This document shows positions 18,421 through 37,010 of a stretch of 64,000 bases of DNA, in pieces. The stretch is from contig WJYK01000003.1 in the NCBI GenBank assembly GCA_009668225.1, positions 62,001 to 126,000 of the forward strand. The letters are read 5' to 3'. A program made the position numbers and the translations under genes. The stretch is from Enterobacteriaceae bacterium RIT693. Lineage in GTDB: Bacteria; Pseudomonadota; Gammaproteobacteria; Enterobacterales; Enterobacteriaceae. The notes below the pieces were generated by a model that had not been told where the DNA came from, searched no databases, and worked only from the letters and a program-made list of their open reading frames with translations. How positions within the stretch are numbered: position 1 is the stretch's first letter; every line of letters starts with the position of its first letter.

Positions 18421-21114
18421 TTAGTGCCACTGTTTGAAGCGGCGCATGTAGAACGTTTTCATTGCCTGGGCCACGCAGCAGTAGGCCAGCAGGGTGCCGA
18501 CCAGCCACGGGAAGTACTGCCACGGCAGCGCCTGCAGCCCAACCAACGGCCCGAGTGGGGAGAACGGGACGTAAATACCGACCGCCATCACCAGCCCGGT
18601 CATCATCATCACCGGCCAGGCGGCGGTGCTCTGAATGAACGGGATCTTCTGGGTACGCAGCATGTGCACCACCAGCGTCTGCGACAGCAGGCCTTCCACG
18701 AACCAGCCGGACTGGAACAGGGTCTGCATGTGCTCGCTGTTGGCGCTGAACACAAACCACATCAGCGCGAAGGTGGTCATGTCAAAAATGGACGACGTTG
18801 GGCCAATCCAGACCATGAAGCGGCCGATGTTTTTGGCATCCCATTTACGCGGCTTGCTCAGGAACTCTTTGTCCGTTTTATCCCACGGCAGCGCGAGCTG
18901 GGAGATGTCGTACATCAGGTTTTGCAGCAGCAGCTGAATGGCAAGCATCGGCAGGAACGGGATGAACGCGCTGGCAACCAGCACCGAGAACACGTTGCCG
19001 AAGTTGGAACTGGCGGTCATGTTCAGGTACTTCATGATGTTGCCAAAGGTCTCGCGGCCTTTGATGACGCCTTCTTCCAGCACCATCAGGCTCTTTTCCA
19101 GCAGGATGATGTCGGCAGATTCCTTGGCAATATCGGTGCCGCTGTCGACCGAGATACCGACGTCGGCATCACGCAGGGCAGGGGCATCGTTAATCCCGTC
19201 GCCGAGGAAGCCGACGGTATGACCGTTAGCCTGCAGCGCCTTCAGCACGCGAGACTTCTGCAGCGGCGTCAGCTTGGCGAACACGGTGCGCTCTTCCACT
19301 AACTGCTGCAGGGAAGCGTCGCTCAGCTGCTCAATCTGCGGGCCGAGCACCGGCTCGCCCGGCTCCAGCCCAACCTGACGGCAAATACGCGTGGTGACAA
19401 TGGCGTTATCGCCGGTCAGCACTTTCACCGCCACGCCGATGTCCATCAGGGCGGCAATCGCCGGGCCTGCGCTCTCCTTCGGTGGATCGAGGAAGGTGAG
19501 GAAGCCACGGATAATCAGGTCGTGTTCATCGTCGGTGCCGTACTGCTTTTTCGCCTCGGCTTTAGGAATGTCACGGGTGGCCACCACGAGGACGCGGAAA
19601 CCGTCTTTGTTGTAGTCGTTGGTCATTGCCAGCATCGCCTCACGACGCTGCTCGTCCAGGGCGATAACTTTGCCGTTTTCTTCCATGTGGGTGGCAATGC
19701 TCAGCATCTCTTCTACCGCGCCTTTACACACCAACAGGTGATTGCTTTGGCTGTCCTTCACTACAATCGACAGGCGGCGGCGGACGAAATCAAATGGCAT
19801 CTCGTCGACTTTGCTGTAGCCCTGCGGTTTGACGAAGTTTGGCTCATTGTCAGAGAAGTAAATGACGGCCTGGTCCATCAGGTTTTTGATGCCGCTTTGG
19901 TGGTAACTGTTAAGCCAGGCCAGCCCCAGCACGGACTCGTTTTTCTGACCGTTGGTGCCAACGTGGTGCTCGAGGATGATCTTATCCTGCGTCAGCGTGC
20001 CGGTTTTGTCGGTGCACAGCACGTCCATTGCGCCCAGGTTCTGAATCGCGTTGAGACGTTTAACCACCACTTTGCGCTTCGCCATGGCCACCGCGCCTTT
20101 GGCGAGGTTGGCGCTGACGATCATCGGCAGCATTTCCGGCGTCAGTCCCACGGCGACCGCCAGGGCAAACAGCAGGGCATCCCACCATTCGCCTTTCATC
20201 AGGCCGTTGATCAGGAACACCACCGGCACCATGACCAGCATAAAGCGGATCAGCAGCCAGCTGACGCTGTTCACGCCGCGGTCAAACGCCGTTTGCGCCC
20301 GGGTGCCGACAATGGCTTTTGCCAGCGAGCCAAAGTAAGTCCGTGGCCCGGTCGCCACCACCACCGCCTGCGCGGTGCCGCTGACAACGTTGGTACCCAT
20401 AAAGCAGATGTTGGGGATATCCAACAGGTTCTCGCTGTCGACCGCCTTGTCGTGCGCGGATTTCTGCGCCACGTCGCCCAGGGTGTCGTACTTCTCAATC
20501 GGCAGCGCTTCGCCGGTCAGCACGGCCTGGCTGATAAACAGGTCGCGGGATTCGATCAGGCGAACGTCCGCCGGGATCATGTCGCCCGCATAGAGCTGTA
20601 CGATGTCGCCTACGACCAGCTCACGCATTGGGATCTCACGCGGGGTTCCTTTTTGCCCCGCGTGTTCGCGGCGAACGACGGTGGCGGTGGTGCGCACCAT
20701 GGCTTTCAGCGCTTCGGCGGATTTAGCCGAGCGGTGCTCCTGCCAGAAACGCACCAGGCCGCTGAGCGCCACCATGGTGCCGATGATAATTACCGTCGTC
20801 AGGTCACCGTCTTCGCCGTGGCTGGTGGGCAGCCAGTAGTCAGTAAAGAAGCTGATGCTGGCGAGAATAGCGAGCACGTAGATAAACGGGTTGTTAAACG
20901 CCATCAGCAGCTGGATCAGCGCGTGAGGCGGCTTGTCGTGCGCGACTTCGTTCAGGCCATCCCGCTCCAGCCGGGCACTGGCGTGAGCTTCCTGCAGCCC
21001 TTCCCGGGTAGTATTGAGGTTGACCAGGGTTTCTGCGATGCCGTTTTTGGCTTCCTGGGCCGCACGCATAGACAGCGTGCTTTTTTTATTACGGTTCTTG
21101 GTTTGTACAGTCAT
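18421..21114 (-). CDS. mgtB: MgtB-type magnesium-translocating P-type ATPase
   Basis: 897-residue P3B-type ATPase that imports Mg2+ across the inner membrane. Motifs are the phosphorylation site DKTGTLTQ, the actuator loop LTGEALP, the hinge GDGINDAPALRD, and a C-terminal helix bundle. The N-terminal LNEVAH...PPHALIQLLMAFNNPFIYVL and the C-terminal FYMRRFKQWH are closer to Salmonella MgtB than to MgtA; no mgtC is present nearby. Start ATG 21114 is chosen because AGGAG lies seven bases upstream; an in-frame start at 21153 lacks this. The 5' region is long and may hold a leader ORF, as in other Mg2+-regulated mgt genes, but this is not demonstrated here. Confidence 0.95.
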   Translation of the reverse strand: MTVQTKNRNKKSTLSMRAAQEAKNGIAETLVNLNTTREGLQEAHASARLERDGLNEVAHDKPPHALIQLLMAFNNPFIYVLAILASISFFTDYWLPTSHGEDGDLTTVIIIGTMVALSGLVRFWQEHRSAKSAEALKAMVRTTATVVRREHAGQKGTPREIPMRELVVGDIVQLYAGDMIPADVRLIESRDLFISQAVLTGEALPIEKYDTLGDVAQKSAHDKAVDSENLLDIPNICFMGTNVVSGTAQAVVVATGPRTYFGSLAKAIVGTRAQTAFDRGVNSVSWLLIRFMLVMVPVVFLINGLMKGEWWDALLFALAVAVGLTPEMLPMIVSANLAKGAVAMAKRKVVVKRLNAIQNLGAMDVLCTDKTGTLTQDKIILEHHVGTNGQKNESVLGLAWLNSYHQSGIKNLMDQAVIYFSDNEPNFVKPQGYSKVDEMPFDFVRRRLSIVVKDSQSNHLLVCKGAVEEMLSIATHMEENGKVIALDEQRREAMLAMTNDYNKDGFRVLVVATRDIPKAEAKKQYGTDDEHDLIIRGFLTFLDPPKESAGPAIAALMDIGVAVKVLTGDNAIVTTRICRQVGLEPGEPVLGPQIEQLSDASLQQLVEERTVFAKLTPLQKSRVLKALQANGHTVGFLGDGINDAPALRDADVGISVDSGTDIAKESADIILLEKSLMVLEEGVIKGRETFGNIMKYLNMTASSNFGNVFSVLVASAFIPFLPMLAIQLLLQNLMYDISQLALPWDKTDKEFLSKPRKWDAKNIGRFMVWIGPTSSIFDMTTFALMWFVFSANSEHMQTLFQSGWFVEGLLSQTLVVHMLRTQKIPFIQSTAAWPVMMMTGLVMAVGIYVPFSPLGPLVGLQALPWQYFPWLVGTLLAYCCVAQAMKTFYMRRFKQWH

Positions 21115-21344
21115 GGTGGTGCTCCTGTCGCCGGGCGGCAGCAGGCTTTTCACGGTGAATGCCGGATTAAAGGCGGCCGAAAATAGCCCGATGTCGCATC
21201 AGCGATCGGTTTTTAATTAATTTCGCACAGGGCTCCCCGCTATTTATTTTTAAAAATAAACAGGCGAGAAATTTATATTTTCTTTTATTTGGACGTGGTT
21301 ATTCCTGCCGATGTACAGGGATGAATACATCAGGGAATAAACAG

Positions 21345-21675: not shown

Positions 21676-22064
21676 AACACACCTCGGGACCGTGAAAACC
21701 CTGGTCGAGGTGGGACAACACGAGAGCATCAGGCTCCGGCGAGACACACCAAAACGAAGAAGTGATCACAATCGATTTCATGTTTACTTTCCCGAACCGC
21801 CATTAAGGCCATGTTCGGGCAGCTACTAAATTCAGTATCCATTAGTCTCTTATGTCAGGTTAGGAAAGGCCGCAACTTCGGCCCGTGAAATCTACCCATG
21901 AGCAATACTATTGTCAACCCGGCAATGGAAATTAAATTCGTTCGTTTATATTTCAGTGAGGAAATATTGAGGGAAGGGAATAAAGGGTATTTTTATCTCT
22001 CTTCCCGAGCAGTTTCTTTTCTTAAGCGAGAGGCTGTCTCTTGGTCACAAATACCGGGTTTTAT

Positions 22065-22649
22065 GTAGGTTCGGTAAAGGTTCCGTTCACTTCCAGTCCT
22101 GTTTCATATGTCACCACCGAACCGGTGAACGACTCGGGGAAGTCACCGTCACTTCCCCGAGACCCCGGACTCCCGGCCAAATAAATCGCCGCAAGCGGTA
22201 AACCTCCGTTTTATCTCCCAGTCCTGGGTCGGCTGAGATGCGTTCCCGACGCTCTCAGCCTCCGGCCGTTCCCGACGTCCGGACCCTGGCCAGTCGGAGA
22301 GAAAACGGAGGCGATTTAAGCCGGAACCGAGCCTCGCTTCAAATCCGCAGCCACGCTGAAAGTCACAGGCGCTGCAAGTCCCACAGCCACACCCTTGTTC
22401 CCGGCTCTCATCGCCCCCGGTTATGACCCAACTCAGGCGGGGTTGAGCTGCCGGGAGCAGCGAAAGAGAGCGATCGTCGGGAACGAATCGCGAACGACCC
22501 CGACTGTTTGGGTGATGGCCGGTGGGTTTACCGCTTCAGCGGCGATGAGCTTGCCGGGCGCCGGGGCTGTTCGGGGGATGGCGTTATCCCCCGGACACGT
22601 TCACCGTGCTCTGAACGTGCAGGGAAAACAGACCTACGGGTGAACGGAA
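22065..22649. ncRNA. candidate large structured non-coding RNA
   Basis: About 585 GC-rich bases dense in perfect stems. Examples are CTCGGGGAAGT/ACTTCCCCGAG (22133-22143/22151-22161), a 15-bp helix with one mismatch (22203-22218 with 22296-22311), and two neighbouring hairpins inside it at 22231-22260 and 22261-22283 that share the tip CGTTCCCGACG with loop TCCCG. A third hairpin at 22471-22490 has loop CGGGA, complementary to both. Further hairpins are 22572-22593 and 22596-22619. The ends can pair (TTCCGTTCAC 22081-22090 with GTGAACGGAA 22640-22649). Frames here are short and biased. One stem extends by a U-G pair only if read on the plus strand, weak evidence for that orientation. No family is recognised. 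Confidence 0.55.
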
Positions 22650-22773
22650 TAACTGCGGAGCGACAGAATTCTCCCGGAAGATTTTGAAAGAACGTGGGAT
22701 AAGAGACAGAGAGAAAGATAAACGAACCCTCCGGCGGGAGGCACCTCCCCCGATTAAGAATTTTCCTTAAGCT

Positions 22774-22952: not shown

Positions 22953-23225
22953 ATGGATGCGAAACCAACTCGCAGCCCCGGCGGAAAAATTGCGCTGTGG
23001 CTGTTTTATGCTTTTTGTTTGTACATCGTTTGGGCGATGGTGCGTTACTTTTGGGTCGTTAGCGGGGTCACCAGCGGCGATTTAGGCACCTTCAGCGGGA
23101 AACTCCTCGGGGCGCTGATGGGGTTACTGGTGCTCGGGTCCGTGGCGGCAGTGCTGGGCTGGGTAGCCTGGTACACAAGGCCGCGTGCTTATCCCGTTCG
23201 CGCCAGGGAAAATAGACTGCGTTGA
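22953..23225 (+). CDS. small inner-membrane protein of unknown function
   Basis: 90 residues with two hydrophobic helices (about residues 13-35 and 50-70) separated by a short Gly/Ser-rich loop, and a basic C-terminus. AGG lies ten bases before the ATG. A CRP-like site stands upstream, so expression may depend on carbon status. It is followed by ~720 bases before the PTS genes, so membership of that operon is doubtful. I do not recognise the family. Confidence 0.6.
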   Translation: MDAKPTRSPGGKIALWLFYAFCLYIVWAMVRYFWVVSGVTSGDLGTFSGKLLGALMGLLVLGSVAAVLGWVAWYTRPRAYPVRARENRLR

Positions 23226-36923: not shown

Positions 36924-37010
36924 AACACATCAGATTTCCTGATGTAACGAATTTCAAGTGCTTCTTGCATTAGCAAGTTTTCATCCCGGCTCCCCGGCCG
37001 GGATGCTTTT
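36924..37010 (+). ncRNA. dsrA: DsrA small regulatory RNA
   Basis: An 87-base Hfq-dependent sRNA matching E. coli DsrA closely: it opens AACACATCAGATTTCCTG, continues GTAACGAATTT and AGTGCTTCTTGC, and ends in a terminator hairpin CATCCCGGC/GCCGGGATG with a CTTTT tail. DsrA activates rpoS translation by opening its leader hairpin and represses hns. The first region and the rpoS-pairing stretch are conserved; the terminator stem differs from E. coli. It sits beside yodD, dsrB and rcsA as expected. Confidence 0.95.

Follow-up and report, generated by a model that had tools for sequence, protein, structure and literature searches.

TwoAYGGAY (RF01731) is an RNA motif that was listed in 2010 and whose function was still counted as unknown in 2014 (PMC2864571, PMC4333381). 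Weinberg et al. judged that it is likely to be an RNA and unlikely to be cis-regulatory (PMC2864571); CsrA-binding motifs have been found in it, and a sequestration of CsrA has been proposed (PMC4333381). Among repeats, YPAL shows target duplications and targets at sites of dyad symmetry, and both YPAL and ERIC have been reported or proposed to affect upstream mRNA (PMC2229807). REP and BIME sequences are palindromic and intergenic and lie mostly between convergent or unidirectional genes, a REP measuring 20–40 bp (PMC3733652).

The locus described here lies in the window, by which we mean the whole 64,000-nucleotide stretch analysed. We conclude, with a probability of about 0.72, that it is a MITE with Tn5/IS50-like ends that carries two TwoAYGGAY-like RNAs in inverted arrangement, which may be ligands of CsrA; the anatomy of the element given below is held with high confidence. 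Like TwoAYGGAY, each unit has two hairpins with GGA loops in a multibranch, but the units extend past the Rfam motif, are arranged in inverted pairs within a mobile element and have mostly C-N-GGA loops. Several GGA hairpin loops are also found in the CsrB/CsrC/RsmZ sponge RNAs, and csrA is present in the genome; the element differs from these RNAs in being dispersed at ~40 loci on a MITE, in that its binding is putative and in that its loops depart from A-N-GGA, the consensus context of CsrA. Compared with YPAL/RU-2 (~168 bp) and ERIC/RU-1 (127 bp), which are likewise non-coding, repeated and intergenic, the element is ~4 times longer, is bounded by Tn5-like ends and bears a conserved multi-domain RNA in either arm. 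It is palindromic, intergenic and mostly located between convergent genes like REP/BIME, but each arm takes up ~250 nt against the 20–40 bp of a REP; a REP/RAYT origin, raised by GTAG and CGTC strings, was set aside on size and ends. Tn5/IS50 (IS4 family) shares with the element 9-bp duplications and a terminal repeat near the mosaic end, whereas the element has no internal transposase and none was found in the Cedecea genomes searched. No description of the element was found in the literature searched, mostly outside subscription journals and supplements.

Extent, ends and copies of the element

The preliminary description had marked 22065–22649 as a single ornate RNA. An end scan and the conservation across 38 copies indicate that 22034–22709 is one copy (676 bp) of a dispersed element, so that the borders lie ~31 and 60 bp further out and the multi-copy nature of the region had been overlooked. 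The features of the window copy are as follows.

22034–22709, no strand: whole mobile element, with Tn5-mosaic-end-like termini on both sides
22034–22052, plus: left terminal repeat CTGTCTCTTGGTCACAAAT, Tn5 mosaic-end-like (end scan; consensus)
22078–22330, minus: left RNA unit, read outward (minus-strand fold, G-U/A-C bias; unit alignment)
22133–22161, minus: long covarying hairpin of the left unit (double change at 10/11 pairs)
22203–22311, minus: multibranch helix of the left unit around two GGA hairpins (covariation, unit alignment)
22241–22251, minus: GGA hairpin tip of the left unit, minus-strand letters CGTCGGGAACG (sequence, loop tally, alignment)
22267–22277, minus: second GGA hairpin tip of the left unit (sequence, loop tally, alignment)
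22332–22395, no strand: variable centre between the two units (paralog identity 0.72 vs 0.92 and 0.97 in the cores)
22398–22652, plus: right RNA unit, read outward (plus-strand fold, G-U/A-C bias; unit alignment)
22447–22461, plus: hairpin A of the right unit, loop CGGGA at 22452–22456, GGA invariant (unit alignment)
22470–22491, plus: hairpin B of the right unit, loop CGGGA at 22478–22482, GGA invariant (unit alignment, loop tally)
22568–22597, plus: long covarying hairpin of the right unit (double change at 10/12 pairs)
22598–22646, plus: terminal hairpin CGTTCAC...GTGAACG of the right unit (helix 9; mirror at 22084–22131)
22691–22709, minus: right terminal repeat, plus-strand letters AACGTGGGATAAGAGACAG (end scan; consensus weakly conserved)

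The element is multi-copy, ends in terminal inverted repeats and is non-coding as judged from the two ORFs of the region that were scanned, neither of which gave a Pfam match. The consensus ends over 38 copies are GGGCTGTCTCTTAGTCACA and a weaker near inverse, and the consensus ends in Buttiauxella approach the Tn5 mosaic end. In the end scan (124 loci, ≤4 mismatches of 16 per end, rows with identical left flanks dropped), exact 9-bp target duplications flank three of 35 candidate end pairs, all in copies other than that of the window, where the 9-bp duplication has 3 mismatches of 9. Clear-ended insertions were often seen by eye within CCCTCTCCC...GGGAGAGGG-like palindromes. The Tn5-type transposase (PF02281) was matched in 0/8 Cedecea genomes, in a search whose controls were likewise silent, and the Tn5 transposase DNA-binding domain (PF14706) was absent from the two Cedecea genomes sampled; PF14706 has matches in 8/149 family genomes. 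One 3.1-Mb genome (G177) contains 17 PF14706 matches, an expanded Tn5-like family.

An HMM search found 38 near-full copies in the window's own genome, in which a 29-mer of the right half occurs 44 times (41 exact; reversed-pattern control, 0) and a 28-mer of the left half 40 times. Using 22050–22670 as the query, matches were obtained in 12/59 genomes, among them the own genome and all seven others of the genus. A 21-base core was present in 46 named stretches, 45 of which belong to Buttiauxella, Cedecea or two Enterobacter-labelled strains; the remaining one, a Thermomicrobiales MAG, is probably a chance match. Copies close to the window copy were searched for on plasmids and in E. coli, with no match.

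Some details of individual copies and of the surroundings were also recorded. Two tandem copies lie ~840 bp apart in one relative (L026 of G007, 1464–2071 and 2308–2915), and two Buttiauxella agrestis copies (L056, L064) are lengthened by ~77 nt, inserted between positions 245 and 247 of the model. In the window, a P-type cation ATPase gene occupies 18421–21153 on the minus strand, with ~880 bp from its start to the element, and a small ORF at 22953–23225 on the plus strand has a DUF6223 match below the cut-off (20.8 bits vs 27.4).

The two units, their GGA loops and TwoAYGGAY

On either strand, HMM matches cover almost all of the element, which is therefore an imperfect inverted duplication, and it consists of two inverted ~250-nt units, each read outward. 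The left and right arms match each other in an opposite-strand self-comparison (E 3e-5), and the 38 near-full copies share this architecture; in the same comparison, the hairpin at 22133–22161 stands above chance (E 7e-7). All the features listed in the preliminary description could be read in the window at the positions given, including the helix 22203–22218/22296–22311 with its two enclosed hairpins ending in CGTTCCCGACG, the reverse-complement tip CGTCGGGAACG at 22475–22485, and the stems 22133–22161 and 22572–22593. The proposed end-to-end pairing 22081–22090/22640–22649 is also present, and 22081–22091/22639–22649 is conserved across copies. The stem 22596–22619 exists, but by eye its 3' arm varies without compensation and its 5' arm is conserved; likewise, the crossing GTAGGT/ACCTAC is present in the window copy, but its letters are not conserved in other copies (by eye).

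We aligned 46 arms from 23 of 36 copies; L064, with its longer left arm, was among those dropped, and partial copies (24 loci) were excluded from the fold counts. The resulting structure of a unit comprises 57 pairs in nine helices, 96.4% paired, and the pairing drops to 29.7–42.9% when the alignment is slid by 1–3 columns. The preliminary description had named homologues without compensatory changes as evidence against it; instead, double compensatory changes were found at 29/57 unit pairs, with 332 cells changed on both sides vs 94.5 in shuffles. The observed pairing, double changes and covariation score were reached by 0/500 shuffles, but the count of further pair types was not above shuffles (61 vs 64.2). 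Among 36 diverse copies, the double changes cover 10/11 pairs of 22133–22143/22151–22161 and 12/22 pairs of 22204–22229/22283–22310. The CGTTCAC...GTGAACG hairpin is nearly invariant and hence falls outside covariation testing.

GGA is invariant in both hairpin loops of all 46 arms, and the base preceding it varies. Over 78 copies, in a tally that covers the commonest strings and does not capture the right hairpin A, the loop strings are mainly CGTCGGGAACG, then CGTCTGGAACG and CGCCGGGAGCG, with rarer forms having A before GGA; the sole exception among the strings listed is CGTCGCGAACG. The loops in Cedecea and Buttiauxella are mostly C-N-GGA (C-N-GGA-R). By eye, the loops of relatives include CAGGGATG and CATGGATG, and A-N-GGA loops are present among them.

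Membership of the OLE, GOLLD or ROOL style of large RNAs, to which the region had been likened, found no backing in the Rfam models, which were unmatched; no known family reaches its gathering score in the region. DsrA, at 36924–37007 on the plus strand (74.9 bits, gathering 60), is the only family in the window that does so. The units are related to TwoAYGGAY through intermediates. A covariance model of the right-half module, R1, built from 21 of 36 copies, matches 32/149 family genomes, Cedecea and Buttiauxella included, often as opposite-strand pairs, and six of ten fetched RF01731 loci have an overlapping R1 match on their own strand (E ≤ 0.001); of the other four, two gave weak matches and two none. 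Conversely, when eight such loci of relatives were scanned with the Rfam TwoAYGGAY model, two gave scores (36.7 and 31.5 bits), both below the cut-off of 43, and among the 149 family genomes it matched 21 at E ≤ 0.001 and 12 above the cut-off. Its gathering score is not reached by the Cedecea/Buttiauxella units: no match was obtained in three genomes with such copies (G000, G007, G026), and an Rfam scan of three loci (L016, L057, L058) gave no TwoAYGGAY match and nothing convincing up to E 5. The two hairpins within a common stem that mark TwoAYGGAY are present in the units; AYGGAY terminal loops are absent.

L182 (G104) contains, at 1366–1769 and inside a CTCTCCC...GGAGAG palindrome, a half-element of ~400 bp that has Tn5-like ends of its own, and a Citrobacter plasmid copy is located between the convergent genes yeiP and torD. 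The half-element query from a relative matches part of 5375/5426 complete E. coli genomes at a median of 3 places, mostly at 60–80% identity, with 80% of the query covered at no place. One of these places lies between the convergent genes asmA and yegH, where MG1655 has a truncated version (by eye). At three E. coli asmA–yegH loci (L183, L184, L187), the half-element appeared by eye to be flanked by REP-like sequences. The idea that the E. coli copies are RSA repeats found no confirmation in the literature searched.

Gene context and a possible role

Among the 38 near-full copies of the own genome, 28 lie between convergent genes, 8 between tandem and 2 between divergent genes, as judged with a simple ORF picker. 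At the convergent sites, the left ORF ends ≤60 bp away in 23/28 cases and the right ORF in 20/28. In E. coli K-12, 16/89 adjacent gene pairs were convergent (two stretches, 100 kb, by eye); the excess has a Fisher p of 5e-9 against this background of another species and another annotation method. The convergent placement may reflect target choice alone.

A tentative scheme for the element would start from this placement. Downstream of two convergent genes, the element would be crossed by read-through from either gene, which would yield one unit in sense orientation, in the distal half. The paired GGA loops could then bind CsrA and turn the 3'-UTR into a CsrA ligand, which would tune the stability of that mRNA or titrate CsrA. 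Given the mirror symmetry, the element would function in either orientation. The family may spread CsrA-binding RNA modules, mirror-image and orientation-proof 3'-UTR cassettes between convergent genes, of which TwoAYGGAY would be the visible fragment; we put this forward as a reading that is less likely than not. The part assigned to CsrA itself, slightly better placed though still below even odds, is suggested by the GGA in both loops of all arms; the A-N-GGA context is mostly replaced by C-N-GGA in Cedecea and Buttiauxella, so that binding may be weak or absent. No sigma-70-like promoter was found in 22000–22750. The copy in the window has divergent genes on its two sides and therefore does not fit the read-through model. 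The loop context, the lack of a promoter-like site and this divergent setting weigh against a simple version of the scheme, and the rating of TwoAYGGAY as probably not cis-regulatory (PMC2864571) also speaks against it.

The strongest competitor, which we consider unlikely but to be reckoned with, is that the element serves as a bidirectional terminator or protector of mRNA 3' ends between convergent genes, with CsrA uninvolved. The convergent sites with their nearby ORF ends, the palindromes that often surround clear-ended insertions, and the precedents of YPAL and ERIC (PMC2229807) all suit such a role. However, a terminator scan of the window copy gave 2 sites vs 1.2 expected, neither at the long hairpins, and a terminator needs neither two invariant GGA loops nor a 57-pair fold.

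Strand preference and copy history

The fold could also act at the DNA level, as a cruciform or single-stranded-DNA hairpin of a selfish palindromic MITE, and the whole-element fold gives this some room, being strand-symmetric in both energy (-169.0 vs -166.3 on the two strands) and wobble pairs (G-U 29 : A-C 30). For this parity, DNA-only structure was at an earlier stage the main reading; it was dropped after the arms were separated, just as an early impression from 38 copies of an RNA on the minus strand only gave way to the two-unit reading. The whole-element symmetry follows from the opposite orientation of the two units, and each arm by itself favours the outward strand, with energies of -80.4 vs -68.2 antisense for the right arm, -84.1 vs -76.1 for the left, and -83.9 sense vs -69.4 antisense for both arms together. 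In shared pairs, the outward strand has 48 G-U against 12 A-C cells (15 vs 7 pairs), an excess weaker than that of RNase P and counted over cells and sequences that are mutually dependent; RNase P from 30 genomes (30 loci out of 58 genomes with a match) gave -114.7 vs -71.5 and G-U 19 : A-C 0. Partial copies and inversion in place suit an unstable palindrome, but the strand preference of each arm and the invariance of the loop GGA beside varying stems make a purely DNA-level structure improbable. Covariation and strand bias thus support each unit being a structured RNA, although the strand bias is weaker than that of RNase P; this part of the preliminary description stands, and the single 585-base RNA does not.

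Orthologous copies were compared in 13 pairs that have a full copy on both sides and both flanks in common with a copy of the own genome (G000). In 6/13 pairs, the orientation of the element is reversed with respect to the flanking sequence. Of the seven collinear pairs, six have a left end, and five a right end, whose nearest match is its own ortholog, but the variable centre is closest to its own ortholog in 0/13 pairs; the locus is therefore tracked mostly by the ends, and inner segments have been exchanged between copies. Among the G000 copies, the cores have mean identities of 0.92 and 0.97; the value falls to 0.80 for the right hairpin and to 0.36–0.76 for the ends and three variable segments. 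The core consensus of G000 and of its relative G003 differs at 1/211 and 0/165 sites and the centre at 6/116, with flanks at nine common sites 88.9–97.5% identical; it is more divergent in three genomes with one copy each (G001, G006, G007), up to 26/211. In another genome, G004, seven of ten loci have partial copies only, so that this genome can do without the element. Site-specific inversion at TTCCGTTCAC/GTGAACGGAA is not favoured, since the outer ends are inverted too in L022/L099 (by eye). Independent insertions into the same target in either orientation, instead of inversion in place, are a less probable source of the inverted pairs.

The shuffling of inner segments, with ends mostly tracking the locus, would also be expected if the compensatory changes were a by-product of quasi-palindrome correction during replication together with gene conversion, in the absence of selection. 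We regard this as very improbable, in view of loops that are conserved while stems vary, the strand bias of each arm, and the near-identity of the G000 and G003 core consensus despite diverged flanks. Last, the complementary tips and conserved long-range pairs such as 22081–22091/22639–22649 lend themselves to the first proposal of a single large ornate RNA with kissing loops, but this is barely tenable, as the region consists of two units in opposite orientation, the sequences concerned find local partners inside each unit, half-elements occur alone in L182 and E. coli, and the tips show no covariation between arms. The complementarity of the tips arises from the arms being inverted copies, a global inverted duplication that the preliminary description had missed. 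In the kissing test, in which hairpin B represented the right arm, T precedes GGA in the right loop of 9 copies, of which 2 also have T in a left loop, and six copies have T on the left and G on the right.

For the pair of TwoAYGGAY-like units on a MITE, the inversion in place with the fold kept would clearly exemplify an RNA element that can work bidirectionally, and the proposed orientation-independent working fits an element found inverted in place. That relatives of TwoAYGGAY are carried as inverted units on a mobile element with Tn5 ends accounts for the repetition of the motif in genomes and gives it a testable role; with half-element matches in nearly all of the complete E. coli genomes, such tests are feasible in a laboratory strain. 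If the cassette reading is true, TwoAYGGAY in Enterobacteriaceae would be part of a transposon family that reaches from Cedecea to E. coli.
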